Shown here in pieces: positions 7,592 to 64,000 of a stretch of 64,000 nt of DNA. Position 1 is the first letter of the stretch. Each line of letters opens with the position of its first letter. The notes beneath the pieces were generated by a model, which made no database searches, was not told the origin of the DNA, and was given only the letters and a program-made list of their open reading frames with translations. Source of the DNA: an uncultured Geobacteraceae bacterium (GTDB taxonomy: Bacteria > Desulfobacterota > Desulfuromonadia > Geobacterales > Pseudopelobacteraceae); assembly GCA_903875605.1 (NCBI GenBank), contig CAIQWT010000007.1, positions 62,001-126,000 on the forward strand. The letters run 5' to 3'. The position numbers and the translations under genes are program-made.

Positions 7592-11099
<3,508 letters not shown>

Positions 11100-29938: not shown

Positions 29939-30637
29939 ATGAAGAGAGAAAATCTCCATAGCGGCCATCGTGAGCGATTGCGGAAACGCTTTCTGGAAGA
30001 GGGACTGGACAGCTTTGATGATCACCAGGTACTGGAGCTATTGCTGTTTCAGGTGATTCTTCGGGGAGATACGAATATAATCTCCCACCGTTTAATGCAA
30101 CGCTTTGGTTCACTTTCCGCGGTGCTGGAGGCCGATCCCGAGGATATAGCCTCAGTTGAAGGGCTAGGCTATAAGGCCGCTGCATTCATGGCGATGATTC
30201 CCCAGGTGACCCGCAGATATTACCAAGACCGGGTATTACTTGACCGCCCAAAGCTAAGCAGTTCCTCAGCGGTGGCGGAATATCTCATCCCGCTTATGGC
30301 AGGGCGACCGGAGGAGGTCTTTTACGTTCTCTGCCTTGATACGCAATGCCGGGTGCTCTATCCGGCACTAATCAGTGAAGGAACCGTAAAAGAAGCCGCT
30401 GTTTATCCCCGTCATGTAGTTGAAGTGGCGATCCGGCACCGCGCCGCCTCAGTGATCTTCGCCCACAACCACCCCGCCGGCACATCCACCCCCTCTCCTC
30501 AGGATCACCATCTCACTAAAATATTGGTTCAGGCCCTTGGCCCCCTGGATATAAAAGTACTGGATCATATTATTGTCGCCTCAAATAACGCCTACAGCTT
30601 TGCCAGTGAAGGCGTTTTGCCGGGTTATGAGGCTTAA
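29939..30637 (+). CDS. radC: RadC family JAMM-domain protein
   Basis: The RadC family (DUF2466) has an N-terminal helix-hairpin-helix-like region and a C-terminal JAB/MPN domain; its role is unclear despite the historical name. The 232-residue product has the metal motif [14 protein letters not shown] preceded by the conserved [14 protein letters not shown] strand. It follows rlmH after 13 nt and probably closes the operon that starts at the thioesterase. A second JAB domain of this type lies in the DinG-like helicase at 41-43.6 kb. Confidence 0.93.
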
Positions 30638-41078: not shown

Positions 41079-41109
41079 GTGTAGTGGCGCATTCAATGCG
41101 CCACTACAC
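41079..41109. repeat. 31-bp near-perfect palindrome over the dinG-like stop
   Basis: Two 15-base arms (41079-41093 and 41095-41109) are exact inverted copies around a single central base. The palindrome includes the stop codon of the JAB-DinG gene (41104-41106) and lies 36 nt after the convergent membrane-protein gene. No T tract follows on either strand, so it looks more like a REP-type element or processing hairpin than a standard terminator, though it could end both transcripts. Confidence 0.7.
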
Positions 41110-43605
41110 GCAATCAAAAAACGCTTTCATCTTGTGAAATACTTCCGCTGAATCCCCTTTGATAATCTCCGTATCCGGTAGCGAACGCAGAAAAATTCTG
41201 CCGTAACTCTTGTTCAGTACGCGCCGGTCAAGAATCAACACCGCTCCGCGGTCATCGCGGCTCCGAATCAGGCGGCCGAATCCCTGCCGGAATTTAATAA
41301 CCGCCTGCGGCACAGAAAAATCACGGAACGGGTCGCCGCCGTCGGCCTTGATCTTTTCTGCGCGGGCCTGCTGCACCGGATCAGTCGGCACCTGGAACGG
41401 CAACCGTGCAATGATCACCAGTCGCAGCGCCTCCCCTTTGACATCAACACCCTCCCAGAATGAATCCGTGCCGAACAGCACCGCGTTGCCCTCTTTGCGG
41501 AACTGTGTCAACAGAGTATGGCGGCCGGTTTCACCCTGTTTGAGTGAAGTAAGGCCGAGCCGTGACAACTTGGGAGACAGTGCCTGGTACACCCGATTGA
41601 GCAGGTCGTAGGAGGTAAAGAGGATAAAAACACCACCGCGTGAAATCGTAACAGCCTTGAGTATATGCTCCTCAAGCGCTTCCCGGTAGCCTGGTACGGT
41701 CGGTTCCGGCATGTCTTCAGGTATGGCAACAAAAACCTGGCTGGCATAGTCAAATGGTGATGCCAGCTGCAGTTCGGTGATGCGCTCTTTGGGGAGCAGC
41801 GTAAAACCGTTGCGTTTTTTCAAGTAGCCGAACTGTCCCCCCACTGTCAGCGTTGCGGAAGTAACGATGATGGTTTTGAGTTTGTCGAGGACGGTCTCTT
41901 TGAGTTGAGCCGAGATGTCTAGCGGCGCTGCTGTCAGGCGGGCCTGAACGCCTCGATTATTACGCTTGGTTTCAATCCAGCGACAGTAGCCCTCGGCCTC
42001 TGTCGTGAAAAAGAGCAGCGAGTCGGCCATGCTTTGCAGTCTTCCTTCAATCCCCCCGGTATCAAGCAACTGGTCAGCCAGCTTTTCCTGCAGTTTTTCA
42101 GGTAGATCTTTGGAGCGCCGCACCAGAGTACGCAGCGATGATGTATAGTCATTGATTGCATCCGCAAGCGCGTGCAATTTATGCCTACAGTCAAGCCAGA
42201 AAGGGGTGGTCTCCACATCTGGAACAATCCGCAGTTTCTGCTCCTTCCCGGCTTCTCCCCTGCCCTGCTGCTCCACGCTGATTGCCAGCCAATCCATCGT
42301 CTGCTCCGTTATTCCTGTCAGGTCATGAGCCTTGGGGACCAGGTGGCCATCCAGCAATCCAGACAGCTCAGCATAAAGCCCTTCTTCAGATTCCGGAAGA
42401 AGGCGGGTAATGAGGCTGGAGATGATGGTCAGCAGTCCGGCACGCCCGGCTTTCTGGGGCACCAGACGCTGCAGTTGTTTGATTATACCGCTGCGGGTAA
42501 TTGTTAGAGACAGATGGCTGGTGGCGACATCTTCCAGATGGTGCCCCTCATCAAAAATCAAGCGGGTGAACGGAGGAAGGATTGCGGTGGCATCGTAGCC
42601 GGTCTCCTGCCGCAGAACTATATCCGACAACAGCAGGGCGTGGTTAACCACCAGAACCAGTGCTGCAGAGGATTCACGCCGGGCGCGATAAAAGAAGCAG
42701 CGGTTGAAATGTTTACAGTGCGAACGGCCGCATTGGTCTGCTTCACAGCAGATTTCCTCCCAGGTGCCGCCATGGGGAGTAAAGGCCAGGTCGCTGCGGC
42801 AGCCGTCCTGGCAGCTGTGACTCCACTCGATTATAGTTGTCAGCTCAGCTGATGATTCATCGGGGAACAGCGACGGTTCTGCCTCGGCATGTTCCAGTTT
42901 GCGCAGGCAGGCATAGTTACTGCGCCCCTTGACCAGTGCCGCCTTGAATTCGACTTTGGAGTTGCGCGCCAGGAAAGGAAGGTCTTTTTTTATCAGCTGT
43001 TCCTGCAGATTTATGGTGTTAGTGGAAATGACAACCCGTTCATTATTTCGTACAGCCCAGAGAATGGACGGAATCAGATACGCCAGCGACTTACCGGTAC
43101 CGGTGCCGGCCTCTACAAGTACAACCCGGTCGCTGTTAAAAGCCTCTGCCACGGCAAAAGCCATTCGTACCTGCTCTTCGCGCTGCTCAAAGCCTTTTAG
43201 ATGAGCCATCATGCCGTTAGCGGCAAAGATACGGCCGATCTCTTCAAGGGAGAGCAGTTCCCCTTTTTTCTCCGTATGTGGGGCAACAACCAGATAACAG
43301 CGGGTGCAGTTGTTATCGATGATGGCAAAGCCAATACCCTGATTGCCGCAGACCGAGGCAATATCCATGTCGGCAGATGACGGCTCAAGGTCACCACTGG
43401 GGTGGTTGTGAATAACAACGTCGCCACCGGAGGCACGGGTGATGATGGCAGGCACGGCAACTTTGGTGCCGCGAGCGATAGCCTCCGCTTCATAGATGAT
43501 GCCATCAACATTAGTGCTGCCGATGAAGAATACTTCGTTGCCCTTTGCCTGTTTAATCTCGTGGCGCATCAGCAGCAGCGCGTCTTCGGTAAAGTATTTA
43601 TTCAT
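41104..43605 (-). CDS. DinG-like XPD-family helicase with N-terminal JAB domain
   Basis: A superfamily-2, iron-sulfur DNA helicase of the DinG type with an unusual N-terminal fusion. Residues about 1-115 form a RadC-like JAB/JAMM domain with Glu24 and His66-x-His68...Asp79 in HNHPSGDLEPSSAD. The helicase follows: Walker A EAGTGTGKSLAYL; a cysteine-rich insert (CQDGCRSD, CCEADQCGRSHCKHFNRC) for a 4Fe-4S cluster; the DEAH-type box IFDEGHHLEDVA; and C-terminal motifs GTDSFWEGVDVKG and QGFGRLIRSRDDRG. The 833-residue size reflects the extra domain. It is probably a repair helicase that unwinds DNA; the role of the JAB domain is unknown. Confidence 0.92.
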   Translation of the reverse strand: MNKYFTEDALLLMRHEIKQAKGNEVFFIGSTNVDGIIYEAEAIARGTKVAVPAIITRASGGDVVIHNHPSGDLEPSSADMDIASVCGNQGIGFAIIDNNCTRCYLVVAPHTEKKGELLSLEEIGRIFAANGMMAHLKGFEQREEQVRMAFAVAEAFNSDRVVLVEAGTGTGKSLAYLIPSILWAVRNNERVVISTNTINLQEQLIKKDLPFLARNSKVEFKAALVKGRSNYACLRKLEHAEAEPSLFPDESSAELTTIIEWSHSCQDGCRSDLAFTPHGGTWEEICCEADQCGRSHCKHFNRCFFYRARRESSAALVLVVNHALLLSDIVLRQETGYDATAILPPFTRLIFDEGHHLEDVATSHLSLTITRSGIIKQLQRLVPQKAGRAGLLTIISSLITRLLPESEEGLYAELSGLLDGHLVPKAHDLTGITEQTMDWLAISVEQQGRGEAGKEQKLRIVPDVETTPFWLDCRHKLHALADAINDYTSSLRTLVRRSKDLPEKLQEKLADQLLDTGGIEGRLQSMADSLLFFTTEAEGYCRWIETKRNNRGVQARLTAAPLDISAQLKETVLDKLKTIIVTSATLTVGGQFGYLKKRNGFTLLPKERITELQLASPFDYASQVFVAIPEDMPEPTVPGYREALEEHILKAVTISRGGVFILFTSYDLLNRVYQALSPKLSRLGLTSLKQGETGRHTLLTQFRKEGNAVLFGTDSFWEGVDVKGEALRLVIIARLPFQVPTDPVQQARAEKIKADGGDPFRDFSVPQAVIKFRQGFGRLIRSRDDRGAVLILDRRVLNKSYGRIFLRSLPDTEIIKGDSAEVFHKMKAFFDCV

Positions 43606-43748
43606 AAGGATATGTGATTAAAAGCTGCTTCATTATGGGGTTACGGTCCTTATTCATTGTTTGTCTGCTTGCAAAAGAAAATGGACGCAGGTTGTTTTGT
43701 GCGAGGTATTTTGGATTTTCAGGGGTGTTGCAAGCCACGCAAGGTATC

Positions 43749-44267
43749 TCAATGTATCAGTAATCCCACAACTCCCGCCCCCAGAATAACCACCATAGGG
43801 CTGACTTTTGTCCATTTGAAAATTGCAAAACCGACTGCCAGAATCACAAATTCCTTTACGCCGGACAGTGATGCAACTCCCAGATTCCAGGCTGCTGCGG
43901 CTACCAGCCCAACAACTGCCGGAAGCAACCCGTTGAGGGTACTGCCGATGAGATCAATCTTTTTCAAGCGTTCATAATTGCGCCCGACTATCAGCATCAA
44001 CACAACACAGGGCAAAAAGATAAAGACTGTTGCAACCAGTGCTCCCGGAAGACCACCTGCCCGGAAACCGGTAAAAGTAGCCAGCATCGCCAACGGGCCG
44101 GGGGTCAGCTGCGAGAGGGCCAGGCCGTCGAGAAACTGACGCAGGGTCAGCCACTTATATTGTACGACCATTATATGATTAAGCAGCGGAATCAGTACAT
44201 AGCCGCCGCCGACAAACATCAGGCCGATGCGGAGGTAGATCCAGGCAATCGCAAGAAGAGAGGTCAT
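43749..44267 (-). CDS. Chromate transporter ChrA, second half
   Basis: A 172-residue CHR-family membrane protein with LRIGLMFVGGGYVLIPLL near the start and QFLDGLALSQLTPGPLAMLATFTGF, the conserved GP-containing signature. Split CHR proteins work as pairs of short homologues to export chromate or similar anions. Its ATG overlaps the stop of the partner gene by one base. Confidence 0.9.
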   Translation of the reverse strand: MTSLLAIAWIYLRIGLMFVGGGYVLIPLLNHIMVVQYKWLTLRQFLDGLALSQLTPGPLAMLATFTGFRAGGLPGALVATVFIFLPCVVLMLIVGRNYERLKKIDLIGSTLNGLLPAVVGLVAAAAWNLGVASLSGVKEFVILAVGFAIFKWTKVSPMVVILGAGVVGLLIH

Positions 44268-44824
44268 TAGTTGAGCCTCCGGCGGAGATATGAACGGCAG
44301 AGTGACCAGATAGTCGCCCCCAGAAGGATCCAGGCGGCATTAAGTTTGAGAAATACCGAAACACCGAATGCGGCTAGGGCCATCAACGCACCGTTCCATC
44401 CCTTGATCTGTTTGCGCCCCATATCGATCGCAACGACGACTATCAGGCCGATTATTACCGGATTGGTACCCCTAAGTGCTGCCTGAAGCTGGGGCAGTTT
44501 GTTATAGGTAAAATAGAGCCAGGAGAGAAAGGACACCAGCAGAAATGAGGGGAGGATAAAGCCTGCAGCTGCGATTATCCCTCCACGGATCCCCCGCAGG
44601 TGGTGTCCTGTGAAGGTGCAGACATTGAGCGAAAATGGCCCTAATATCTGCCCGAAAGCGAGGCCGTGCATAAACTCTTCAGACGAAATCCACTGTTTTT
44701 CACGAACACAGATGCGCTCAACCAGGGCAACAATGGCCATTCCGCCACCAAAGCCGGTCAAGCCGATAGTGGCAAAGGTCAGAAAAATCTCTCTGAGACT
44801 TACTTTATTTCCGCTGGTTTTCAT
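44267..44824 (-). CDS. Chromate transporter ChrA, first half
   Basis: This is the partner of the split CHR transporter. It shows FLTFATIGLTGFGGGMAIVALVE and EFMHGLAFGQILGPFSLNVCTFTG, mirroring the other half, and about five to six membrane helices. I chose the ATG at 44824 (185 residues), which begins like other CHR proteins. An upstream ATG at 44902 would add 26 residues of odd composition. Whether chromate is the natural substrate is not known. Confidence 0.88.
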   Translation of the reverse strand: MKTSGNKVSLREIFLTFATIGLTGFGGGMAIVALVERICVREKQWISSEEFMHGLAFGQILGPFSLNVCTFTGHHLRGIRGGIIAAAGFILPSFLLVSFLSWLYFTYNKLPQLQAALRGTNPVIIGLIVVVAIDMGRKQIKGWNGALMALAAFGVSVFLKLNAAWILLGATIWSLCRSYLRRRLN

Positions 44825-44938
44825 CCTCAATTTATAGCAGGAACAGCTAAGCACCGGCAAGGTAAAATGGAAGGGAAAAAATTGCCTTGAACGATGCTCC
44901 ATGGTATTAATAGCACCTTAAGCCTATCTTCATCATGT

Positions 44939-50009: not shown

Positions 50010-51902
50010 ATGAACACATCCAGGGAAATTGCAGTTGAACTTCGTCGCCGTCGCCCTTTCGATCGCATGCTTTCCGCACATGTGGAATGGCTTGCAGCAA
50101 AGCTTGAGATGGTTAAATTTGCTCAGAACACGGAGATACTCCAACCGGAAACACCCTGTACTGAGCTTTTCTTTATCCACAAAGGAACTGTCCAGCTTGA
50201 AGCTATCGGCAATGCAGCAGACGACAAAAAAGTGCTGGCTGAGCTGGTTGAAGGAGAATGTTTCCCACTCGAAGCGCTGGAAGAACGGCGGCCGGTGTTC
50301 TCTACTTTTCGCGCTAACTGCGATGTGATCTGCTACCGCCTGGCAATAGAAAATTTTGACGAACTAAAGAGCATGAGTACGGTCTTCAGCGATTTTTGCA
50401 AGTATCGCTCACAGAGTTTCCTCGAACAATCCCGCAGGGTATTCAGGCTGCATTTTTCTCACAAGAGTGATGAGCAGCAGCGCTTGAATACGCCCCTTTC
50501 GATCCTTATGAGCCCCGACCCATTGACGGCAAGAAATGACGACCAGGTTCGGGCCGTTGTGGCGAAAATGTCCGAAAAAGACGTCGACGCAGCAACGATA
50601 ATCAACGATGACAATGTGCCGATCGGCATATTCACCATGCGCGATCTGCTTCGTAAAATTGTAATACCGGGTGGAGATCTGAACATTCCGATTGAAACGG
50701 TGATGACGACATCGCCGCGAACTCTTCCGGTCTCCGCTCTTGGCTACGAAGCGGCACTACTTCTTGCCGAAGCCGGGTTTCATCACGTTATTCTCGTAGA
50801 TAAAGGCAAGCTTGCCGGCATTGTCACCGAACGGGATCTCTTCAATCTGCAGCGCGTCAGTCTCAGTCAGCTCAACGCCGAGATCCAGGCTGCCAACAGC
50901 CTGGATAAACTCAAACGCTGCGGCAGTGACATACATCTGCTGGCGGAAAGTATGATCATTCAGGGGGTTACGGCTGACCATATAACCCAGATAATCTCGA
51001 CTTTGAACGACCAGATAATCACCAGAACTCTGGATCTGGAACTGGCCAAAGAGAATCTGAAGGAGTTCAAAGTTGCCTGGATCGCCTTAGGCAGCCAGGG
51101 GCGTTACGAACAGACCTTCTTCACTGATCAGGACAACGGCATCATTTTTGAGATACCGGAGGGGCAGGATGCCGACTCAGTTCGCGCAAAACTATTGCCG
51201 GTTGCCCAGAGGGTCAACCAGGCGCTAGATTTTGTCGGTTTCTCGCTTTGCAAAGGTAACATCATGGCTGGAAACCCTGAATGCTGCCTAAGTTACCGGG
51301 AGTGGCAGGTAAAGTTCAATACATGGATTCAGGAACCAACCCCGGATTCACTCCTAAAAGCCACCATTTTCTTTGATTTCCGCCATCTCTATGGAGAAAC
51401 CTCGCTCTCAGACAGGCTTCGTGCCTGGCTTGCAGAGGCAGCAATCGGTCAAAAGCGCTTCTTCCATCTTCTCGCCGAAAATGCCAAGGAGAGAACTCCG
51501 CCACTTGGTTTCTTCCGTGATTTTATTGTCGATGATAACAAAGAATTCCCCGGCACGATCGACATCAAACAGAACGGCGTGACCCTGTTCGTCGATGCCG
51601 CCAGGGCCTTTGCACTGGCCTCCGGCGTAACACGCGGCAACACCCGCGAGCGTCTCCTCGCCGCCGGTGATCTGCGAAAATGGCCGCAGAGTGAGGTAAA
51701 TGCCTGGGCAGATGCCTTCTCATTTCTGCAGTCACTGCGTATCCGCCACCAGTTCGAACTGATGCAGAACGGCAGCAAATCCAACAATCAGATCAACCCG
51801 TACGAGCTGAACCAGCTTGACCGCAAGTTTTTTCTCGAATCGCTCCGTCAGGCGGGGAAGCTGCAGAAACAGCTCAGCATGGATTTCGGGATGGGAATGT
51901 AG
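50010..51902 (+). CDS. Cyclic-nucleotide/CBS-domain DUF294 nucleotidyltransferase-like protein
   Basis: The 630-residue cytoplasmic protein has four parts: a cyclic-nucleotide-binding-like domain (residues about 10-140), two CBS domains (about 155-285), a GlnD-like nucleotidyltransferase DUF294 domain with GSQGRYEQTFFTDQDNGIIF, and a DUF294 C-terminal helical substrate-binding domain. Proteins of this layout are thought to be signalling enzymes or adenylyl-type transferases, often next to acetate/solute transporters or a DEDD exonuclease; neither is here. GGGAGAAG precedes the ATG. Target unknown. Confidence 0.9.
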   Translation: MNTSREIAVELRRRRPFDRMLSAHVEWLAAKLEMVKFAQNTEILQPETPCTELFFIHKGTVQLEAIGNAADDKKVLAELVEGECFPLEALEERRPVFSTFRANCDVICYRLAIENFDELKSMSTVFSDFCKYRSQSFLEQSRRVFRLHFSHKSDEQQRLNTPLSILMSPDPLTARNDDQVRAVVAKMSEKDVDAATIINDDNVPIGIFTMRDLLRKIVIPGGDLNIPIETVMTTSPRTLPVSALGYEAALLLAEAGFHHVILVDKGKLAGIVTERDLFNLQRVSLSQLNAEIQAANSLDKLKRCGSDIHLLAESMIIQGVTADHITQIISTLNDQIITRTLDLELAKENLKEFKVAWIALGSQGRYEQTFFTDQDNGIIFEIPEGQDADSVRAKLLPVAQRVNQALDFVGFSLCKGNIMAGNPECCLSYREWQVKFNTWIQEPTPDSLLKATIFFDFRHLYGETSLSDRLRAWLAEAAIGQKRFFHLLAENAKERTPPLGFFRDFIVDDNKEFPGTIDIKQNGVTLFVDAARAFALASGVTRGNTRERLLAAGDLRKWPQSEVNAWADAFSFLQSLRIRHQFELMQNGSKSNNQINPYELNQLDRKFFLESLRQAGKLQKQLSMDFGMGM

Positions 51903-51988
51903 ATACGGACGGAATTAACGGGGCGAGCCAACGGCATCGCTGCTACATATTTTAATATATCAAACAGTTGTATCAAGAGGGTAAGCCG

Positions 51989-54900
51989 ATGAAAAACTTT
52001 CTCCGACAGATATGTATTATTTCGGTGTTGATGTTGTCGCCACTAGTAGCAGGCAATGGGAATGTTTACGCTGCTCCAACGGTCACGCAAATTAGCACAG
52101 GAAATTCTCCTGATGCTGTCGGTGTTAATCCGGTTACTAATAAAATCTATGTCATGAATGCTTCATCAGGATATGTAACGGCGTTTAATGGAGTGGACAA
52201 TATACCGAAAGTAATAATGTTAGGTGATTACTCCTGGGGGGCACCATCTGGCATTGCGGTAAATCCTATTACCAATAGAATCTACATATCGCACTATCAA
52301 AACTCTGCTATTTCGGTAATAGACGGTGCAACTGACACCCTGCTTACAACCATAACAACCGGTGCTAACCATAAAAGTATTGCAATCAATGTCGAGACCA
52401 ACAGGATTTATGTAACAAACTATAACAGCAACTCAATTACTGTTATCGACGGCATATCCAACTATCCAATTGCAACTATTCCTGTGGGGAGTTGGCCGCT
52501 CGCAATAGCGGTAAACCCGGTCACCAATAAAATTTATGTTACCAATCAAGGTGACTACACCATCTCGGTTATTGACGGAACAAGTAAGAGTGTCATCAAA
52601 ACAGTCGGTGATAGCTCCAAAGTAGGATACGGAGAAGCAATCGCAGTAAACTCGGTAACAAATAAAATCTATGCAGCTGGCACTGTGTCAGGTCGATTTA
52701 CTGTTATTGATGGCGCTACAGATACAATCACGACATTTTTTCCTCTAATAACGGCTGCCTCATCAAATCCGCCTGCTGTCGCAGTAAATTCCATAACAAA
52801 CAAAATCTATGTAGCTGATGGCGTTTACTCCGGTAAAGTATATGTAATTGACGGCCTTAACGATACCCTTTCAGCTACGGTTACAGCCGGAATGAATCCA
52901 CACGCGATCGCAGTTAATCCAGTCACCAACACCATTTATGTAGGTAATGGTAATAGCGCAGATACTACAGCAATTGACGGCTCAAATACCGCCACGACTA
53001 TTTCTGGTGGAGGCTGGGCGCTTGGGGTAAATGTAACAACCAATTCAGTATATACTGCACGTTACGGCTATCCTAACGCATATGCCATAAACGAATCATC
53101 ACAGCCTGCCGTGCCTCTAACCAGCTCAATATCTGCACTTCCAGGAAATCAGGCTTCCAACCCAACACCAACATTTACCTTCACCACCTCAACAGGCGTA
53201 AACTGGCCTGCGGTTCGCAAGGTTTATTATCAGGTGGATTCCATTAACGGTGCCTGGAAAGAGGCAGGCATCGTCGGTACAGACCAATATTCAGCCACCA
53301 GTTCAGCCCTTTCTGGCGGTTCTCATACGATCTATAGTTTTGCCACCGACGGCCAGGACAGTACCTCCGTCAACACCGGACCTGGCGCAAGCCCGCTTGT
53401 TGGAGCAATGGCATCATACACATTCTCGATCCCTACCTTTGCTATTAGCACTTCTGTCCCGGGAGGAAATGGTACGGTTTCCTGCGACTCTCCGGTCACG
53501 CTGGGCGGAAGTTCGGTCTGCACAATAACGCCCAACATAGGCTACCATTTAGCAACATTTACTGATGACGGATTAGAGCAGCTTTTGGCTGCTTCAGCCA
53601 TCAGTTATACAATCAGCAATGTCATTGCCAACCATACTATAAGTGCCACATTTGCAATAACTCCCTTCACCGGTTCAGTCGCAATAAACTCTGGTGCAGC
53701 ATACACAACTTCAGCAGATGTGACATTGAACCTTGCCTGCACTAATACTGTTTCCGGCTGTACACAGATGAGATTCTCGAACGACAATTTGACGTGGGAA
53801 TCTGCAGTAGGATATGCGACGACATTTACTCCCTGGACTCTTTCTGTCGGCTACGGGCTTAAAACCGTCTATGTGAAATTTATGGACGGTGCTGGCAACT
53901 GGTCAAATCCCTATAGAGCCACCATTGTTTTGTCCCTTGCAGATATAAACTGGAAATCCATATCTGCCGGTGTTAACCATACTGCGGCCATCAAGTCCGA
54001 TGGGACTCTTTGGAGATGGGGGCTGCAAAGACATGGCAGCGAAGGTGGATTTGCCGGCGTGACACCCCTTCAGATTGGCTCTGCAACTAACTGGGTTAAT
54101 GTCTCTGCAGGAATTGACAACACTCTTGCCATCGACTCCGACGGCAAGCTGTGGGGCACAGACGGCTATGTTGCCAGCCAGGATGCTCCGTTTTCTCTTC
54201 TTCAGATTGGCTCTGATTTGGACTGGTCTACCATGTCAGCAGGCCCAAATCATAACCTTGCACTGAAGTCGAACGGAACTCTCTGGGCTTGGGGGAGAAA
54301 TTTTGAAGGACAACTTGGGGATGGGACGACTGCATACAGAAGTGCCCCGGTTCAGGTCGGCTCAGAGACGGATTGGTATGCCGTTGCGACAGGCGACAAA
54401 CATTCTGTCGCTCTGAAAACTAACGGAACCTTGTGGACTTGGGGTGATAATTCCTTGGGCCAGCTCGGAAATGGAACGACCCATGATAATATTGGTGTTC
54501 CCGGTGCTCCGGTGCAGGTCGGCACAGACATCAACTGGGTCTCCATTACAGCGGGTAGATATCATACCGTCTCCACAAAAACCAATGGCACTCTCTGGTC
54601 TTGGGGGGGGAATTGGGACGGTGAACTCGGCATCGGGAACTTAACCCCATCGTACAGTGCCAGTCCAGTCCAGATTGGGTTGGAAACGGATTGGGTTCTT
54701 GCCAAAGCCGGTTATTCTCATGCAATTGCTTTAAAGTCAAATGGCACCCTCTGGGCATGGGGTCGAAATGATAATGGACAACTGGGAGACGGCTCCACAA
54801 TATCCCAAAATGCTCCCATACAGATAGGCTTAGATTCAATTTGGGTTGCCGTTTCGACAAGCAATTCTCACACCATTGCCCTGAAATTGGATGGTTCACT

Positions 54901-57900
54901 TTGGGCATGGGGTGCAAACAGCAAAGGTGAGCTTGGGAACGGAACCACAGTAAACAGCACGTCCCCTGTTCAGGGAGGTTTAATCCCTGATTTAACCGCA
55001 CCAACCTCTGGCACTCTCACCGCCACCCCCGGCAAAAAACAAATCATCCTCAGCTGGAGCGGCTTTAGTGATGCAAGCGGCATCGCTTCATACAAGCTGA
55101 TTTCTTCATCAAGCGCATTACCGACTGATTGCAGTGGTACAGCAATCTACAACGGCACCGCCCAGACATTCACCGTCGCTGATCTTGCCGATAATACCAC
55201 TAGGTATTTTGGAGTTTGTGCAACCGATAATGCCGGGAACAGTTCTGTAGCACCAGTCACCGCATCGGCAACAACCTTTACCGCTTCGGTCATATTGTGG
55301 GAAACTTTCGACCTCGGCACGCTTCCCCCAGGTTGGAGTCTGGTCCAATATTTGGCTAACAACCGTACTGATTGGTCATTTAGCCTTTCCGGAAATCCAA
55401 CAGGAGGCAGTGGTGGTTATGCGATTGCTAACCAATATATGGATTCCGCAATACTGACGCCGCATCTGAATCTTACGGGCACGACTAATCCTGTACTGGA
55501 GTTTAAATCTGCTTTCCCATTGAATTCTGGATCCGCTACGATGATCGTCAGCATGAGTACAGACGGCGGGTCTACATGGGCACCATTATGGCAGACTTCA
55601 ACACAATATGGAGCGACAACAAAGATTCTTTCTCTGGCTGCGGCAATGGCAACTCCAAGTGATGTTGTTATCAGATTCAATTTTGTCAACAATGATTTAG
55701 GAAGTCCGGTTTGGGCAATTGATGACGTCAAAGTTTACGATCAGCCGATAATTACCCTAGCAGATGCTCTTGAAAACCCGCCTGGACTAACTTTTACCAC
55801 CGGTGGCAATGGCAACTGGTTTGGCCAGAGCACAACTACCCATGACGCTGTTGATGCAGCTCAGAGCGGGGCCATAACACACTCGCAAAGCACGTGGGTA
55901 GAAACCACTGTCACCGGTCCGAGCACCCTCAGTTTCTGGTGGAAAGTCTCATCCGAATCCGGCTATGACTACCTCGGTTTCACTATGGATCAGCCCTTTG
56001 TACGCTCAAGTGGTCCTGACGCAATCAGCGGAACGACTGGTGGTTGGGAAACGCGTACATACACGATACCATCCGGTACGCATACCCTCCGTTGGACTTA
56101 TGCCAAGGATAACTCTGTTAGTAGTGGTTCTGATGCCGGGTGGCTGGATCAGGTCGTTTTTACCATCCCTCAACCAACAGTTACTGGTATATCACCAGCG
56201 AATAGCGCTCTTGATGTTTCGGTCAACAGATCGATTACGGCAACCTTCAACATGGCGATGGACGCTGCGTCGATCACCGCCAGCACCTTTACCTTAAGCA
56301 GCGGCAGTTGCAGCAGCGTCACGTACAACAGCTCCACAAATACCGCAACCTGTACACTATCCGCTCCTCTTAATCCCGGCACTGTTTACACAACAACAAT
56401 CACGACCGGCGTTAAAAATGCGTATGGCAACAATATGGCGGCGAATTACAGCTGGAGCTTTACGACCGGGCTGGCTCCGATAGGCACAACCTGGGCAAGA
56501 ACCTATGGCGGTGCCGGCTATGACGGCGCTAGTTCAATACAGCAAACAACACCGGACGGCGGATATATCATGGCCGGTTACTCCGAGATTTCATCTGTTA
56601 CTGCTGTTATGGTCACCAAGCTTGATTCGCTTGGCGCAATCACCTGGCAGAAAACTTACGCTGGCGGTGACTGGTCGGGAGCAAATTCCATCCAGCAGAC
56701 CGCAGATCGTGGTTATATCGTTGCCGGTGAAATGGACACCGCAGAGAATGGCTATGGAGATGTCTGGCTCTTGAAGCTTAGTTCCACTGGAACAGTAGAA
56801 TGGGAAAAAACCTATGGTGGTACAGGATATGATTATGCCCAGTCAGTACGCCAAACGGCTGATGGCGGCTATATTGTCGCCGCATATACAGAGTCTTACG
56901 GAACTGGTGGTGACGCATGGTTCTTGAAACTTGACGACACCGGAACCATCGAATGGCAAAAAACATTTGGCGGCGCCGACAGAGATTATACCGCCGGAAT
57001 ACAGCAAACTTCTGACGGATATATTGCGACCGGAACAACCTTTCTAAACAACGGTACCAGACGGGCGTTGACGCTTAAACTTGACTCGTCTGGCGCAGTG
57101 GTATGGCAGAAGACTTTTGAGCCTGGCGTTGCCGATGACAGTACGTCCGCCAACTCTGTCGAGCAGACAGCAGATTCTGGTTACATTGTCTCCGGTCTGG
57201 TCAACAGGTTTCTTGGTAATACAGATGCACTGATTATCAAACTTGATTCGCTTGGCGCAATCACCTGGCAGAAAACATACGCTGGAGGCACCTGGTCGGC
57301 AGCAAATTCCATTCTGCAGACAGCCGATGGCGGCTATATAGTTGCAGGTAAAATGGAGACTGCAGCGAATGGCTATGGTGATGCCTGGCTCTTGAAGCTT
57401 AGTTCCACTGGAGCTGTAGAGTGGGAAAAAACCTATGGTGGCTCAGAATATGACGATGCGCAGTCAGTAAGCAAAGCGTCGGATGGCGGCTATTTAATTG
57501 CCGGTTATTCGGACTCTTATGGTGGCCATGGTGATGCTTTTGTCTTGAAACTGGATGCAAACGGTAATGTTGCGCCAGGTTGCGGTATTCCATTAGTAAA
57601 CGCAACCTCAGTAACTGTAACGAATGCCGGTATGACCGCTACTCTCCCGTCATCCACTCTTGCTGATGCAACACTTAAAGATCCCGGAAATGGCTCGCCC
57701 GTAGTTTCTGACGGCACACTTGGCTCTGGTGGCGTTTGCAGTCCGCGAATCAATTTAGACTACACATTACTTGATTTCGGTGTAATCGGTACCGGACAGG
57801 TTTCTTCTCCGCAAATTATTACTGCTACTAATGTTGGCTATGCTGATCTGACAGTTAGCTCTGCCGTTGTGAGCGACACAACTAACTATACGATTCTTGC

Positions 57901-60900
57901 CAACACATGCGGATTGTTGGTTTCTACCAGTACCTGTACCGTTACCGCGCAGTTCAATCCGATGACTGACGGAACCAAGAACAGCACACTGACGGTGGCA
58001 TCAGAGGCACCTGCTGTTACGGTGGCACTGACCGGTGCGTCTCATGAAATGGTTGCACCAACGGGGAGTATTGCCATAAATCCCGCAGCTGCCTACACAA
58101 ATGCAGCAACGATTAATTTAACTCTCTCCTGCAGTGACACCGGCAGCGGTTGCAGCCAGATGCAATTTTCTAATGACGGCAGTACCTGGTCAGCCTCTGA
58201 AGTTTTTGCGACGACCAAAACCGGTTGGGCACTTTCCGCAAGTGACGGCCTTAAAACCGTTTACGTTATGTTCCAGGATGTCGCCGGCAACTGGTCAACA
58301 CCCTACACCGCCTCGATCACACTTGATACAATTCCGCCAAGCTTTAATTCCGGGACTCGATCAGTTATCACCATTGCATCCGGGCTGCTAGATCCACGGG
58401 GTGTTGTTGTTGATGCCGATGGAGTCTACTTCGGGGAAGCCGGTAGTAATAACGACGTGGTTAATTATAGCAACACAGATGGCAGGATTAGAAAAGTCGG
58501 TAAAAATGGCGGTGTCATAACCACCCTTGCAACCGGATTGACCTATCCGGCTCTTCTGACTTCGGATGCGGCGAATGTTTACTGGATGTATTCCGATGGT
58601 ACTTCTGCCGGAACCTCCCTTAAATCGCTTGCCAAGACAGGTGGTACGATAACCCCCCTTGTAACAGGGGTTAACGGTGCTTTGATGAACGCGGCAGTCG
58701 ATGACACCAGCGTCTATTGGCTTGAGTCAGGAACGTACTCAGGCACCTGGTTTACCAACACTGCCTCCATCAACAAAATTGCCAAAGACGGTTCAGGTGC
58801 AGGCGTAAAAGTTCCTTTGGTAGCAAATACCAACATTGGTTACGGATCTCTGGCGATTGATTCCTCGTATCTCTATTGGGGTGGCTATATTAGCAACATT
58901 GTTGGCAGGGTTGGTTTGGATGGCAGCAATCCGATTACACTGGCGCCATCATCTGAGTTCCCTACCTCCGTTGCTGTCGATGCCACGAGCGTCTATTGGC
59001 GTACTAATCTTGGCTCAATACTCAGAAAGAATAAAGATGGATCAGGATTGCAAACTAAATTAGCAGCAGCAGCACCAACGTGGGATGATGGATCTATGCT
59101 GATTGATGCCGACAATGTCTACTGGAACGAATATAGTCATACGACGCTGAGGTCGATACCAAAAGCCGGAGGAACTGCAACGACACTGCTTACCGGTTTG
59201 CCGGGAGTTGCTGTCGTCGCTGATACAACAGGGATTTATTGGGCAGAACGCGGCACGTTGGCAAATAATTACAGTGATGGAACTATAAAAAAACTGGTTT
59301 ATCTTTCAGCAATAGTTATAAACAGTGGCGACGCCACTACCAACAAGCAGGCCGTGACGCTGGCACTTTCAGCTCTGGATGCCAATGGCGTGTCGCAAAT
59401 GAAGTTCAGTAACGATGGCATCACATTTGATCAATCCGTGCCGTATGCGACTTCTGCCTCGTGGAATCTTGCTGCCGGTGACGGTGTGAAGACGGTTTTC
59501 GTCATGTTTAAGGATGTCGCCGGTAACTGGTCGGCACCGTATAGCAGTTCCATTACTCTTGATACAACCACCCCGGCCATATCAGTTACACCGGCTTCAC
59601 CAATACCGTTCAATAACGTAATCGTTGGCAGCAACGCATCTACACCAATTACCATAAGCAATACCGGCTTGGCACCGCTTACTATTTCTCCCGCCATGAG
59701 CATCACCGGCAGCGGCGACTTCAGTATTGTCACTAGCGGTGGCACCTGCGCCAGCACAACACCCACGATTACTTCAGGTGTTAACTGTACTTTTGATGTG
59801 AAGTTTGCACCGTCAGCAAATGGTTCAAAAACCGCAACATTGACCATTGTTTCTAATGATCCGTTCACACCAACGGTTACTATCAGCTTGACCGGAACTG
59901 GAATACCACCAGTCGTTATCATCACTCCCTCGACAGTCGGTACCGGACCAGGCACGATAACGACCTTTGCCGGCGGTGGCAATTTGGGCGAAATTGGTCC
60001 TGCCACGGCCGCAATGTTCAACTATCCAGCCGGCGTTGCCGTTGACAGCACAGGCAATGTCTATATCGCGGATTTCAATAACAACAGAATCCGAAAAGTT
60101 GATACCTCGGGAAATATATCTACCTTTGCCGGCAACGGAACGCCCGGCTATTCTGGTGATGGAAAGTTGGCGGTATCGGCTTCTCTTAACTCGCCCAGCG
60201 GTGTTGCCTTCGACAGTGCCGGTAATGTCTATATTGCTGACACCGGTAACGGTTCTATCCGAAAGGTCGATACGTCAGGCAAAATAACTACCGTTGCGGG
60301 AAACGGAAGTAGCAGTATTGCAGGTGCGGGCGACGGCGAACTGGCAACAGCAGCGCAGTTGAACTGGCCGGTAGCCGTTGCCTTTGACGGCGCGGGGAAT
60401 CTATACATAGCAGACCAAGCGGATTGCCGCATCCGGAAGGTCAGCAAAGCTACAGGCGTAATAACCACCATCGCAGGGACTGGCAATTACGGCGGTTCCG
60501 GCGACGGTAGCCCTGCCACGGCTGCGATGCTCTCAAATCCAATGGGTGTTGTGGTTGACGTAGATGGGAACGTCTACATTGCAGACTGGGGCAATAACCG
60601 CATCCGTAAGATTGATAATTCCGGCACAATCACGACCATGGCTGGATACGGGACAGCGGGCTATTTGGGCGACGGCGGAGCGGCAACATCTGCGATGCTA
60701 AATCGGCCAACCGGTGTTGCTATTGATATTACAGGGAATATATATATCGGTGACCAAGACAATAACCGTGTCCGGAAGGTTGATACTTCCGGCATCATCT
60801 CGACCATTGCTGGAAACGGGACAACGGCCTATTCAGGCGACACCGGTCCCGCAACATCAGCAGCTCTGAACAGCCCAACTGGCATTGCGGTCAACAGCGC

Positions 60901-63900
60901 AGGGACTGTCTTCTATATCGCGGACAGCAGAAATAACGTCATCAGAAAGATTGCTGCAGGAATCATCACAACCTTTGCAGGCAGGGGAATAGGCGATAAC
61001 GGGCCGGCGACCAGTGCCGTTTTTGCCGGATATCCGAAAGACGTTGCCTTTGACGGTTTAGGAAACACGTATATTGCGGATAATTTTGAACGAATCCGCA
61101 AGGTCGATGCTTCAGGCACGATCACTACTTTTGCCGGGACCGGTAAAGGGGGATATTCGGGCGACGGCGGACCGGCATCATCGGCACAGCTTAATTACCC
61201 CCTCGGCGTAGCTGCCGACAGCGCAGGGAACGTCTATATTTCTGATGACGGCAACGGGGTCATTCGCAAAGTGGATCCCGCAGGTATCATCACCACACTT
61301 GCTGCAGTCAGTCAGCCGATGGGTATTGCTGTTGATAGATTGGGCAATGTCTATGTTGCACAAGGCTGGAGTTCACGGATGGTCAAGAAAATCGATCCCT
61401 CCGGCACCGTAACAACCTTTGCCGGTACTGGAGTAAGCGGCGATTCCGGTGACGGTGGTCCTGCAACAGAGGCCACGTTCAATCAAGTTGGTTATGTTGC
61501 GGTTGACGCGGCGGGGAATGTTTATATTGGCGATACCGGCAGTCACCGCATCCGCAAAGTGGATGCCTACGGCATTATCTCGACCATTGCAGGCGACGGG
61601 AACATGTTGTCCGGTGCCGCCGCCGATGGCGTAAATGCTACCTCCACGAGTCTTGCCTGGCCGTATGGTGTTTCTGTTGACGGCGCGGGAAACGTCTATT
61701 TTGTGGACGGTGGTTACCCACGTATCAGAAAGGTTGATCCTTCCGGCATTATCACGACCATTGCGGGAAGCGGAAGCACAGGCTATTTTGGTGACAATGG
61801 ACCGGCACTAGATGCAATGTTTAATAATCCACTCGGTATTCGTGTGGACAGCGCAGGAAATGTCTACGTCGCAGACGAGGGCAGTATCCGCGTCAGAAAA
61901 ATTACGCTTGCAGCGAGGGGAGGCACCATCAACCCTTCAACTCCACAGTCCGTTGCTGCTGGAGGAAGCGCAACCTTTGCCATCACCCCTGACTCGGGGT
62001 ATAAAATTGTCGACGTTCTGGTTGACGGCACATCAGTGGGCGCTGTTCCAACATACTCTTTCAGCGGACTGATCGCAAACCACGCCATTGGAGCGAGCTT
62101 CATCAACCAAGCACCGCCAACGGCCTCAATCACCAACACCCCTGTCACCTATACCGGTTCTGTGCAGACCGCCACGGTTGCCTGTCTTGGTGGCGGTGTG
62201 GCAACACTTGCCACCGGTGGCACCGGCACCAATGCCGGTTCATACCCCGCGACTGTTGACTGTGCTGCAAGTACCAACTATTCTGCAGCGACAGGTCTTT
62301 CTGTAGGCAATTTCGTGATCAGCAAGGCATCACCCACCGCATCAATAACCAACAGTCCGGTTGACTATAACGGTTCAGTTCAAACTGCCACTGTGGCTTG
62401 CCTTGGTGGAGGCACAGCAACATTGGCCAGCGGCGGTACCGGCACCAACGCCGGATCATACCCGGCAACTGTCAATTGCGCTGCCAGCACCAACTATGCC
62501 TCGGCAACAGGCTTGAATGCCGGCAGCTTTGTAATCAACGCTGCCACTCCGACGGCAAACATAACCAATACACCGGTCACCTATAACGGCTCTGCTCAGA
62601 CCGCCGCAGTTGCCTGTCTGGGAGGCGGCACCGCAACCCTTGCCAGCGGTGGCATCGGAACTAACGTCGGCACATATTCGGCAACAGTCGACTGTGCAGC
62701 CAGCACCAACTACGCTGCTGCAACAGGTTTGAACGCTGGTAACTTCGCTATCAACCCTGCAAATCCGACAGCAAGTATCACCAACAGCCCGGTTGCCTAT
62801 AACGGTTCAGTTCAAAATGCCTTGGTGGCCTGCCTTGGTGGTGGAACTGCTACTCTTGCCACCGGTGGCAGCGGCACCAACGCCGGATCGTACCCGGCTA
62901 CGGTTGACTGTGCGGCAAGCACCAACTACGCTGCGGCAACAGGACTCGCCGCTGGTAACTTCATAATCAGCCAGATCACCCCGACCGCTTCTGTTACCAG
63001 CAGTCCGATTACTTATAACGGCTCGCCGCAGGCTGCTACTGCTGCCTGTCTGGGCGGCGGCACCGCCAGTAACATTCTTGTTGGCGGCGCAGTCAGTCAG
63101 ACAACTGCCGGTACTCATGCAGCAACGGTTGATTGTGCGGCAAGCACCAACTACAGTGCCGTAACTGGTATTTCAGCCGGTAACTTTGTCATCAGCAAGG
63201 CATCACCGACCGCATCAATAACCAACACGCCGGTAACATATAACAGTTCCGTTCAAACTGCCACGGTGGCCTGCCTTGGTGGCGGTACGGCAGCCCTGAC
63301 AAGTGGCGGCGGCGGTATCAACGCCGGTTCGTACCCCGCTACTGTTGACTGTGCGGCAAGCACCAACTACAACGCAGCAACAGGACTCGCCGCCGGTAGT
63401 TTCGTGATCAACCAGATCACCCCGACCGCTTCCGTAATTAACAGTCCAGTCATCTACAACGGTTCACCGCAGGCCGCTACTGCCATCTGTCTGGGTGGCG
63501 GAGCGGCCAGCAACATTCTTAGCGGCGGAGCAGCGACCCAAACTAACGTCGGCACCTACGCCGTCACTGTTGACTGTGCCGCGAGCACCAACTACACCGC
63601 AACAGCAGGACTCGTCGCCGGTAACTTAATTATCAACAAGATAACCCCGGTTATCAGCTGGGCTAACCCGGCAGATATCACTTACGGTACTGCTTTAAGC
63701 GGCACCCAGTTGAATGCAACTTCTGGCGGAGTCGCCGGGACCTTCGTTTACACCCCGGCAAGTGGCACGGTTCTAAGCTCCGGAGCAGGTCAAACGCTGT
63801 CAGTAACCTTTACCCCAACCGATACGGCCAACTACAACACCCCGGCGGCAACAACCGTAACTATTAACGTTGCCATCAGCACCTTCACCATCACCCCCAG

Positions 63901-64000
63901 TGCAACCGCTGGCGGCACCATCAGCCCCAACACGGCGCAACTGGTGACCTTCAACGGCAGCATCGGCTTCACCATGACTCCAAACGCCGGCTTCACCATC
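51989..64000 (+). CDS. Giant secreted mosaic beta-propeller protein, 3' end outside window
   Basis: The frame is open for at least 4004 codons. AGAGGG precedes the ATG and a signal peptide ends near VYA (residue 29). Domains by residue: YVTN propeller 37-368; Ig-like/bacterial-repeat 371-650; RCC1-like propeller 652-999; Fn3-like 1002-1097; two jelly-roll-like modules 1100-1391; Big_5-type Ig 1394-1494; WQKTYGG propeller 1500-1857; HYDIN-like 1917-2014; Ig 2018-2117; LDL-receptor-like propeller 2124-2444; Ig and HYDIN-like 2445-2639; NHL repeats 2656-3308; bacterial repeat 3309-3371; seven-unit array 3378-3887; more Ig-like to the edge. No enzyme motif was seen. It is probably a surface adhesin or matrix protein; function and secretion route are inferred only. 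Confidence 0.93.
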   Translation, partial: MKNFLRQICIISVLMLSPLVAGNGNVYAAPTVTQISTGNSPDAVGVNPVTNKIYVMNASSGYVTAFNGVDNIPKVIMLGDYSWGAPSGIAVNPITNRIYISHYQNSAISVIDGATDTLLTTITTGANHKSIAINVETNRIYVTNYNSNSITVIDGISNYPIATIPVGSWPLAIAVNPVTNKIYVTNQGDYTISVIDGTSKSVIKTVGDSSKVGYGEAIAVNSVTNKIYAAGTVSGRFTVIDGATDTITTFFPLITAASSNPPAVAVNSITNKIYVADGVYSGKVYVIDGLNDTLSATVTAGMNPHAIAVNPVTNTIYVGNGNSADTTAIDGSNTATTISGGGWALGVNVTTNSVYTARYGYPNAYAINESSQPAVPLTSSISALPGNQASNPTPTFTFTTSTGVNWPAVRKVYYQVDSINGAWKEAGIVGTDQYSATSSALSGGSHTIYSFATDGQDSTSVNTGPGASPLVGAMASYTFSIPTFAISTSVPGGNGTVSCDSPVTLGGSSVCTITPNIGYHLATFTDDGLEQLLAASAISYTISNVIANHTISATFAITPFTGSVAINSGAAYTTSADVTLNLACTNTVSGCTQMRFSNDNLTWESAVGYATTFTPWTLSVGYGLKTVYVKFMDGAGNWSNPYRATIVLSLADINWKSISAGVNHTAAIKSDGTLWRWGLQRHGSEGGFAGVTPLQIGSATNWVNVSAGIDNTLAIDSDGKLWGTDGYVASQDAPFSLLQIGSDLDWSTMSAGPNHNLALKSNGTLWAWGRNFEGQLGDGTTAYRSAPVQVGSETDWYAVATGDKHSVALKTNGTLWTWGDNSLGQLGNGTTHDNIGVPGAPVQVGTDINWVSITAGRYHTVSTKTNGTLWSWGGNWDGELGIGNLTPSYSASPVQIGLETDWVLAKAGYSHAIALKSNGTLWAWGRNDNGQLGDGSTISQNAPIQIGLDSIWVAVSTSNSHTIALKLDGSLWAWGANSKGELGNGTTVNSTSPVQGGLIPDLTAPTSGTLTATPGKKQIILSWSGFSDASGIASYKLISSSSALPTDCSGTAIYNGTAQTFTVADLADNTTRYFGVCATDNAGNSSVAPVTASATTFTASVILWETFDLGTLPPGWSLVQYLANNRTDWSFSLSGNPTGGSGGYAIANQYMDSAILTPHLNLTGTTNPVLEFKSAFPLNSGSATMIVSMSTDGGSTWAPLWQTSTQYGATTKILSLAAAMATPSDVVIRFNFVNNDLGSPVWAIDDVKVYDQPIITLADALENPPGLTFTTGGNGNWFGQSTTTHDAVDAAQSGAITHSQSTWVETTVTGPSTLSFWWKVSSESGYDYLGFTMDQPFVRSSGPDAISGTTGGWETRTYTIPSGTHTLRWTYAKDNSVSSGSDAGWLDQVVFTIPQPTVTGISPANSALDVSVNRSITATFNMAMDAASITASTFTLSSGSCSSVTYNSSTNTATCTLSAPLNPGTVYTTTITTGVKNAYGNNMAANYSWSFTTGLAPIGTTWARTYGGAGYDGASSIQQTTPDGGYIMAGYSEISSVTAVMVTKLDSLGAITWQKTYAGGDWSGANSIQQTADRGYIVAGEMDTAENGYGDVWLLKLSSTGTVEWEKTYGGTGYDYAQSVRQTADGGYIVAAYTESYGTGGDAWFLKLDDTGTIEWQKTFGGADRDYTAGIQQTSDGYIATGTTFLNNGTRRALTLKLDSSGAVVWQKTFEPGVADDSTSANSVEQTADSGYIVSGLVNRFLGNTDALIIKLDSLGAITWQKTYAGGTWSAANSILQTADGGYIVAGKMETAANGYGDAWLLKLSSTGAVEWEKTYGGSEYDDAQSVSKASDGGYLIAGYSDSYGGHGDAFVLKLDANGNVAPGCGIPLVNATSVTVTNAGMTATLPSSTLADATLKDPGNGSPVVSDGTLGSGGVCSPRINLDYTLLDFGVIGTGQVSSPQIITATNVGYADLTVSSAVVSDTTNYTILANTCGLLVSTSTCTVTAQFNPMTDGTKNSTLTVASEAPAVTVALTGASHEMVAPTGSIAINPAAAYTNAATINLTLSCSDTGSGCSQMQFSNDGSTWSASEVFATTKTGWALSASDGLKTVYVMFQDVAGNWSTPYTASITLDTIPPSFNSGTRSVITIASGLLDPRGVVVDADGVYFGEAGSNNDVVNYSNTDGRIRKVGKNGGVITTLATGLTYPALLTSDAANVYWMYSDGTSAGTSLKSLAKTGGTITPLVTGVNGALMNAAVDDTSVYWLESGTYSGTWFTNTASINKIAKDGSGAGVKVPLVANTNIGYGSLAIDSSYLYWGGYISNIVGRVGLDGSNPITLAPSSEFPTSVAVDATSVYWRTNLGSILRKNKDGSGLQTKLAAAAPTWDDGSMLIDADNVYWNEYSHTTLRSIPKAGGTATTLLTGLPGVAVVADTTGIYWAERGTLANNYSDGTIKKLVYLSAIVINSGDATTNKQAVTLALSALDANGVSQMKFSNDGITFDQSVPYATSASWNLAAGDGVKTVFVMFKDVAGNWSAPYSSSITLDTTTPAISVTPASPIPFNNVIVGSNASTPITISNTGLAPLTISPAMSITGSGDFSIVTSGGTCASTTPTITSGVNCTFDVKFAPSANGSKTATLTIVSNDPFTPTVTISLTGTGIPPVVIITPSTVGTGPGTITTFAGGGNLGEIGPATAAMFNYPAGVAVDSTGNVYIADFNNNRIRKVDTSGNISTFAGNGTPGYSGDGKLAVSASLNSPSGVAFDSAGNVYIADTGNGSIRKVDTSGKITTVAGNGSSSIAGAGDGELATAAQLNWPVAVAFDGAGNLYIADQADCRIRKVSKATGVITTIAGTGNYGGSGDGSPATAAMLSNPMGVVVDVDGNVYIADWGNNRIRKIDNSGTITTMAGYGTAGYLGDGGAATSAMLNRPTGVAIDITGNIYIGDQDNNRVRKVDTSGIISTIAGNGTTAYSGDTGPATSAALNSPTGIAVNSAGTVFYIADSRNNVIRKIAAGIITTFAGRGIGDNGPATSAVFAGYPKDVAFDGLGNTYIADNFERIRKVDASGTITTFAGTGKGGYSGDGGPASSAQLNYPLGVAADSAGNVYISDDGNGVIRKVDPAGIITTLAAVSQPMGIAVDRLGNVYVAQGWSSRMVKKIDPSGTVTTFAGTGVSGDSGDGGPATEATFNQVGYVAVDAAGNVYIGDTGSHRIRKVDAYGIISTIAGDGNMLSGAAADGVNATSTSLAWPYGVSVDGAGNVYFVDGGYPRIRKVDPSGIITTIAGSGSTGYFGDNGPALDAMFNNPLGIRVDSAGNVYVADEGSIRVRKITLAARGGTINPSTPQSVAAGGSATFAITPDSGYKIVDVLVDGTSVGAVPTYSFSGLIANHAIGASFINQAPPTASITNTPVTYTGSVQTATVACLGGGVATLATGGTGTNAGSYPATVDCAASTNYSAATGLSVGNFVISKASPTASITNSPVDYNGSVQTATVACLGGGTATLASGGTGTNAGSYPATVNCAASTNYASATGLNAGSFVINAATPTANITNTPVTYNGSAQTAAVACLGGGTATLASGGIGTNVGTYSATVDCAASTNYAAATGLNAGNFAINPANPTASITNSPVAYNGSVQNALVACLGGGTATLATGGSGTNAGSYPATVDCAASTNYAAATGLAAGNFIISQITPTASVTSSPITYNGSPQAATAACLGGGTASNILVGGAVSQTTAGTHAATVDCAASTNYSAVTGISAGNFVISKASPTASITNTPVTYNSSVQTATVACLGGGTAALTSGGGGINAGSYPATVDCAASTNYNAATGLAAGSFVINQITPTASVINSPVIYNGSPQAATAICLGGGAASNILSGGAATQTNVGTYAVTVDCAASTNYTATAGLVAGNLIINKITPVISWANPADITYGTALSGTQLNATSGGVAGTFVYTPASGTVLSSGAGQTLSVTFTPTDTANYNTPAATTVTINVAISTFTITPSATAGGTISPNTAQLVTFNGSIGFTMTPNAGFTI
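52097..53092 (+). repeat. YVTN-type propeller repeats (eight units)
   Basis: Eight units of about 40 residues share the pattern AVNPVTNKIYV...ISVIDG. They begin near VGVNPVTNKIYV and end with the diverged LGVNVTTNSVYT. This is the YncE/YVTN type, expected to close as a seven- or eight-bladed propeller. It directly follows the signal peptide. Confidence 0.85.
53942..54985 (+). repeat. RCC1-like repeats (seven units)
   Basis: Seven units share NWVSISAG..HTLALKSNGTLWAWG, followed in most by N..GQLG(D/N)GT. Seven blades match a full RCC1 propeller. The second unit is shortened (KLWGTDG). Bacterial RCC1-like domains are usually in exported proteins; their partner is unknown. Confidence 0.88.
56486..57560 (+). 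repeat. WQKTYGG-type propeller repeats (seven units)
   Basis: Seven units share the pattern WQKTYGG.GYD.A.SIQQT.DGGYIVAGYT...GD.W.LKLD..G. Units 2-3 and 6-7 are near-identical at the DNA level with a constant offset of 621 bp (for example 56621 and 57242, 56771 and 57392), showing a recent in-frame duplication. Confidence 0.85.
58360..59320 (+). repeat. LDL-receptor-class-B-like propeller region
   Basis: Repeats of the type AVDATSVYWRTN and SLAIDSSYLYWGG recur with KIAKDGSG and SIPKAGGTATTL between them. This resembles the YWTD/DUF5050 six-bladed propeller class. The number of blades, probably six, is estimated by eye. Confidence 0.65.
59954..61912 (+). repeat. NHL repeats (about twelve units)
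   Basis: About twelve units share LN.P.GVAVDS.GNVYIAD..NNRIRKVD.SG.ITTIAGNG..GYSGDGGPAT. One unit (VSQPMGIAVDRLGNVYVAQ) is shortened. Twelve units would make two six-bladed propellers. The repeat is of the teneurin/NHL type common in secreted bacterial giant proteins. Confidence 0.88.
62120..63649 (+). repeat. Seven-unit 72/75-residue tandem array with paired cysteines
   Basis: Units start at 62120, 62336, 62552, 62768, 62984, 63209 and 63425. Lengths are 216, 216, 216, 216, 225, 216 and 225 bp. Each begins TASITN.PV.YNGS.QTA, contains VACLGGG and VDCAASTNY, and ends near GNFVISKASP. The MBG/Ig-like fold is likely. The two cysteines per unit (one diverges in flanking sequence only) could form a disulfide. 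The last units contain a three-residue insertion (ASNIL). Confidence 0.9.

Follow-up and report, generated by a model that had tools for sequence, protein, structure and literature searches.

A RadC-like DinG in a Geobacteraceae genome: a JAB domain with a near-invariant predicted metal site fused to an Fe-S helicase

A single gene in the 64,000-nucleotide stretch of uncultured Geobacteraceae DNA analysed here (the window; contig CAIQWT010000007.1, positions 62,001 to 126,000 of the forward strand) joins a JAB domain of the RadC type to a DinG-type Fe-S helicase, and raises the question of what such a domain does at the front of a DNA motor. The explanation that we favour, at a probability of roughly 0.5, is that the helicase feeds DNA to a metal-dependent JAB hydrolase. 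An ATP-driven Fe-S DNA helicase, predicted to run 5'-3' as a member of the DinG/XPD family, would carry a dedicated N-terminal JAB domain, and this domain would be a working metal-dependent hydrolase acting on whatever the motor delivers. It would trim or nick the exposed strand from the slot that is held by a DnaQ-type domain in exonuclease-DinG proteins. The fixed attachment of the domain, with its conserved metal site, to what is apparently its genome's only DinG-family helicase, in bacteria from environmental sources, offers a direct way to test cutting by a RadC-type JAB, on nucleic acid versus peptide, and a JAMM-fold nuclease on a helicase, if real, would largely settle what RadC-type JABs do.

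The gene occupies 41104..43605 on the minus strand and codes, from an ATG start and in a single open frame, for 833 aa. Residues 1-115 (43261..43605, minus strand) form a JAB/MPN domain, as indicated by Pfam RadC (residues 7-83, 28.8 bits against a cut-off of 22.1, rising to 32.5 bits in a scan restricted to residues 1-127), by an AlphaFold model and by structural matches. A preliminary description of this DNA had placed an intact set of JAMM ligands at E24 (43534..43536, minus strand), H66 and H68 (43402..43410, minus strand, the H66-N67-H68 of an HNHPSG motif) and D79 (43369..43371, minus strand); all four are where it put them, and together with S76 (43378..43380, minus strand) they form the JAMM consensus spacing E...HxHx7Sx2D. 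The complete XPD/DinG-type helicase said to follow the JAB domain is equally borne out by Pfam DEAD (154-237), Helicase_C_2 (residues 648-811, 41173..41664, minus strand, 171.6 bits) and four Fe-S cysteines, C233 (42907..42909, minus strand) and C292, C297 and C303 (42697..42732, minus strand), with DEAD_2 marginally under its Pfam cut-off. The Walker A motif GTGTGKS (residues 167-173, 43087..43107) and the DEAH-type Walker B motif DEGH (residues 352-355, 42541..42552) lie on the same minus strand, and the Fe-S CCCC motif and the MD1 and MD2 motor motifs are all present. It is thus confirmed that the gene codes for a JAB domain and a complete Fe-S DinG/YoaA-type helicase in one frame. The top NCBIfam model is YoaA (NF053712, an equivalog), which scores 577.2 bits, under its cut-off of 680; the DinG equivalog PRK11747 (448 bits) does not reach its cut-off of 598, and the RadC models PRK00024 and TIGR00608 are far below theirs (24.4 versus 180 and 19.3 versus 133.85 bits, respectively). 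The fused protein is the one PF13307 helicase detected in the genome.

This architecture is already in print as a named class (PMC11981726, PMC5512222). Cheng 2025 lists ‘RadC-like DinG’ as one of ten DinG subgroups, models the protein of Desulfuromonas soudanensis, describes its E, H, H, D site, and in section 3.8, on this subgroup, remarks that ‘no research has been conducted’ (PMC11981726); it was the only paper that our literature search for the name returned. The 833-aa protein has the same architecture, the same E/H/H/D site and the same YoaA-like helicase with an Fe-S domain, and we found no feature that sets it apart from the published subgroup, all of whose defining characters it displays (PMC11981726). 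Its identity as a RadC-like DinG is close to certain. Among other relatives, the ExoDinG proteins (a DnaQ-type exonuclease plus DinG, as in S. aureus DinG, 8zef) share the helicase fold and an equally placed N-terminal accessory domain, but they carry an RNase_T exonuclease where the fused protein has its JAB domain, and they form a separate branch of the helicase tree. The helicase core is also common to E. coli YoaA and DinG, and the E. coli YoaA frame, at 645 aa, is shorter than the fused protein by approximately the JAB domain and linker; we know of no report of a JAB domain in either E. coli protein. To the published class we add four facts: the site is almost invariant and has a single natural exception, the fused domain stands apart from RadC, the fused helicases group in a single clade, and KSB1-type bacteria have an exonuclease neighbour.

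Since the genome has four other RadC genes (a profile search finds four standalone matches besides the fused one), it has to be considered whether radC and dinG were joined by chance or by an assembly error. The preliminary description had proposed a search for the fusion across genomes; when this was done the same fusion was found at 42-89% identity in many independent records, and it is therefore not the product of an assembly join. The fused proteins also form one clade, and their JAB domain does not derive from the genome's own RadCs, so that we regard a chance origin as refuted and its probability as negligible. Our contig scan, in which 79 loci were kept from the best 80 of 112 relatives, placed the fused form in Geobacteraceae and Desulfuromonadales records, KSB1 and Calditrichota, and also in a Poribacteria MAG, in Brocadiaceae (Loosdrechtia) and in a few doubtfully named MAGs. 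The Desulfuromonas soudanensis lineage is related to the host of the window.

Among 148 genomes sampled evenly from the window's phylum, 14 have the full-length fusion, as do 5 of 58 genomes from the class of G056, that genome included. Together these make 18 distinct fused genomes, in each of which no relative besides the fused gene was matched at E <=0.001, in a loose first look that weak relatives may escape; the two pieces listed for one of them (G141) belong to one ORF. The remaining 134 phylum genomes divide into 71 with a match and 63 without, and none of the 71 has, among the matches listed, a full-length match that reaches the JAB part.

In a helicase tree of 59 rows, built without L069, without E. 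coli DinG and without a pair of exonuclease rows on long branches, all fused helicases group together (SH-aLRT 98), in a clade of 37 rows that also counts the JAB-less L134, versus 22 rows outside it. An earlier tree of 63 rows did not place the fused rows strictly on one side of a branch: the unfused, long-branched L069 fell in the fused set, and L134 was again inside it; both trees are quick searches without bootstrap. The simplest history would be one fusion event, after which the residues were lost at least once and the domain once. The L069 record itself, a DinG-like helicase on a long branch, is titled Chlamydia trachomatis and is perhaps a mislabelled MAG.

A second possibility raised by the preliminary description was a RadC-helicase partnership, in which two proteins that are normally separate have been joined. 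The window does contain the separate radC that it mentioned, a gene of 232 aa lying outside the fusion and used here for comparison (29939..30637, plus strand; 139.7 bits), but the partnership idea is not supported by the fused domain itself. Fused JABs and standalone RadCs split into separate sets with SH-aLRT 100, in a quick tree search of 133 columns with 31 fused JABs (of 74) and 25 standalone RadCs. An 8-residue insert is present in 25/25 standalone RadCs and absent from 31/31 fused JABs, and the [D/E]-H motif found in all 25 RadCs is replaced by D-N or N-N in 30 of the 31 fused JABs, with L093 as the exception. The two kinds of domain share the JAB fold and the HNHPSG..PS..D motif, and RadC (UPF0758; PDB 2qlc) differs further in carrying approximately 100 extra N-terminal residues with weak UPF0758_N/HhH matches. 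When a profile of the fused JAB was run over the 148 phylum genomes, 13 fused proteins scored 120-203 bits, whereas the next match, among those listed, had 37.3 bits, and the matches from there downwards were mostly ordinary RadC frames; because scores drop from at least 120 to about 37 bits, the compact JAB is seen solely attached to a helicase in this sample. Judged by the tree, the insert and the motif, the fused JAB is not a transplanted RadC and, strictly speaking, is no RadC.

Co-occurrence with radC, another of the comparisons proposed at the outset, is uninformative because radC is nearly universal (132/148 phylum genomes): it is found in 14/14 fused genomes and in 118/134 others (Fisher p 0.37). 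In one fused genome (L095, G126) the JAB-DinG gene is followed, about 1.5 kb downstream and in the same orientation, by a standalone radC (3881-4564 and 6084-8747).

If the JAB metal ligands varied among homologues, the domain would, according to the preliminary description, probably be structural only. They are conserved: 69 of the 70 aligned fused proteins retain E24, H66, H68, S76 and D79, and the Fe-S cysteines C233, C292, C297 and C303 are invariant in all 70. These rows were chosen as single-frame proteins that align to the query from residue 17 or earlier, the residues themselves being disregarded; loci with broken frames (L043, L060, L068) or whose record ends before the JAB domain (L024, L047) were left out, six of the rows retained (L038, L048, L050, L059, L063, L084) are cut or broken at one end, and as two collections were pooled the same species may count twice. 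Four fused proteins found later (L130-L133) all keep the JAMM residues when read by eye; a fixed-spacing motif pattern caught two of the four, its spacing being too strict. Purifying selection acts on the JAB domain, with dN/dS of 0.036-0.181 in ten close pairs, compared with 0.057-0.100 for the helicase in nine computable pairs, both rough estimates with synonymous sites near or past saturation. Near-invariant positions make up 0.20 of the JAB domain versus 0.24 of the helicase (57 rows).

The one exception to this conservation, and the natural comparison for the others, is L093 (G056), in which all five residues are replaced (E to G, H to R, H to R, S to E, D to E) in a JAB domain that is still recognisable, scoring 25.5 bits against positions 5-110 of the JAB profile. 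Its protein is an ORF of 1185 aa from the sole genome of its family in the sample. The domain is missing altogether from L134 (G149), which belongs to the same helicase clade and comes from a 74%-complete MAG; there the frame ahead of the linker has no similarity to JAB and a two-strand tblastn of the flank found no JAB remnant (best E 0.57). The L134 sequence ahead of the linker resembles an inserted repeat of the KRLPTP type.

With the residues gone in one member and the domain gone in another, the helicase can dispense with JAB chemistry, and catalysis is not indispensable in every lineage. This suits an explanation in which the JAB domain has no catalytic role, serving instead to dock DNA or a partner or to regulate the helicase, and in which its residues hold a structural metal. 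The G056 protein, which keeps the fold without the five residues, would then parallel pExoDinG, the pseudo-exonuclease DinG class (PMC11981726), and the loss in G149 points the same way. Against it stands the retention of all five residues, the glutamate and the serine included, in 69/70 proteins. A purely structural metal would not need the JAMM glutamate and serine. We consider a non-catalytic role improbable, and think it probable that the JAB domain of the fused protein binds a metal and is catalytically active, as its conserved site suggests.

Such an active site would cut either nucleic acid or peptide. The model of the JAB domain alone (AlphaFold, 34 sequences) has a pLDDT of 87.9, and JAMM proteases and other MPN subunits head its list of structural matches. 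The matches include Rpn11 (4ocl; Z 10.3, rmsd 2.7, 104 aligned), AF2198 (1oi0; Z 9.3, rmsd 2.6, 90 aligned), BubCD of Citrobacter (9ea4; Z 9.2, rmsd 2.8, 107 aligned) and RadC (2qlc; Z 9.0, rmsd 3.2, 98 aligned), among which Z gaps of about one unit establish no ranking. The whole-protein model (40 sequences) also has a pLDDT of 87.9, and its helicase part matches E. coli DinG with ssDNA (6fws; residues 116-820, Z 39.9, rmsd 6.8, 637 aligned) and S. aureus DinG (8zef; residues 119-832, Z 38.4, rmsd 3.8, 644 aligned). The DALI analysis of Cheng 2025 likewise reports that metalloproteases are similar and nucleases are not (PMC11981726).

A peptide substrate is a serious rival to nucleic acid, given these structural matches, the peptidase nature of those JABs that have been characterised biochemically (PMC5512222) and the description of E. 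coli RadC/YicR as a putative deubiquitinase (PMC4725251). In this alternative the helicase would track along DNA while the JAB domain, a metallopeptidase like that of Rpn11, cuts a protein or a Ubl-like tail on a DNA-bound roadblock or on a partner. Its canonical E...HxHx7Sx2D site would serve such a reaction, and 22 of the 34 members scanned match Prok-JAB at E <=10, the best at 2.8e-5. The motif of the fused JAB is, however, of the RadC type, HNHPSG..PS..D, and RadC-family JABs are held to be unlikely to possess a groove for the ubiquitin tail (PMC5512222). We rate the metallopeptidase as unlikely on the whole.

Nucleic acid is our first choice of substrate because exonucleases occupy the same slot in relatives of the fused protein and because the argument has been made in print for the JABs of the RadC clade. 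The role of RadC is disputed, and RadC-DinG fusions were named in 2017 as a ground to suspect nucleic-acid processing (PMC5512222); an earlier paper, from 2012, reports a nuclease proposal for the RadC clade (PMC3482391). In five of five Chloroflexota relatives scanned, an RNase_T exonuclease fills the N-terminal slot, although the positional equivalence with a DnaQ-type domain is a weak argument as a pointer to a nuclease role. A literature search, mostly at surface depth, found no JAMM-fold nuclease with proven activity. We put a nucleic-acid substrate at slightly short of an even chance. The further reading, in which the domain is a metal-dependent nuclease dedicated to this role and occurring nowhere but in front of a DinG motor, seems rather doubtful.

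There is no conserved operon around the gene: across 32 neighbourhoods, every flanking cluster is limited to 8 loci or fewer, which counts against a peptidase reading. Among the widest clusters, a membrane-type protein is found at 8 loci, all Geobacteraceae-like. A sensor kinase cluster also lies beside the fused gene at 8 loci, of which L049 and L095 are distant ones, and a response-regulator cluster at 5, both being large generic families. Outside the Geobacteraceae and Desulfuromonadales, 7 of 11 fused loci have an MBL-fold exonuclease-like gene upstream in the same orientation (L052, L053, L054, L057, L059, L061 and L082, out of L049, L051-L057, L059, L061 and L082), counting loci with at least 900 upstream bases from the best 80 of 112 relatives; the 32-neighbourhood survey had recorded it at 5 loci, versus 7 in this dedicated search. 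The gene is within 150 bases in five loci and at 1.3-1.8 kb in two. Three of these genes that were scanned match TIGR04122, a ligase-associated DNA damage response exonuclease, at 195-213 bits, below the cut-off of 325. Elsewhere among 146 loci, many with short flanks, no exonuclease-like gene was matched at E <=1e-10. TIGR04122 has no match in the window's genome, and across the 19 genomes searched there are weak matches in 11, none above the cut-off. The exonuclease neighbour lends modest support to a DNA end-processing setting, in the KSB1-type lineage only.

The HolC family (PF04364) has no match in the window's genome and is lacking from 18 of the 19 genomes searched, in keeping with the account in Cheng 2025 of organisms that have a RadC-like DinG without HolC (PMC11981726); the exception, unlike those organisms, is the fused genome G126 (2.1e-31). 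Control by LexA and the SOS response was considered and rejected. The pattern GGTTNNCNNNNGNNNACC, for the Geobacter LexA box, has 133 matches in the window at <=2 mismatches, compared with 150 expected by chance, and none in the region upstream of the gene (43606-43748), which shows no sign of SOS control.

Beyond that region, at 43749-44902 on the minus strand, are two adjoining half-size chromate transporter genes with PF02417 in each. Further along, a protein with cNMP-binding, CBS and DUF294 nucleotidyltransferase domains is encoded at 50010-51902 on the plus strand. A single frame runs from 51968 to 64000 on the plus strand and past the window edge; it spans at least 4011 aa, contains RCC1 and NHL repeats together with Ig-like domains, and probably codes for a giant surface or secreted repeat protein.
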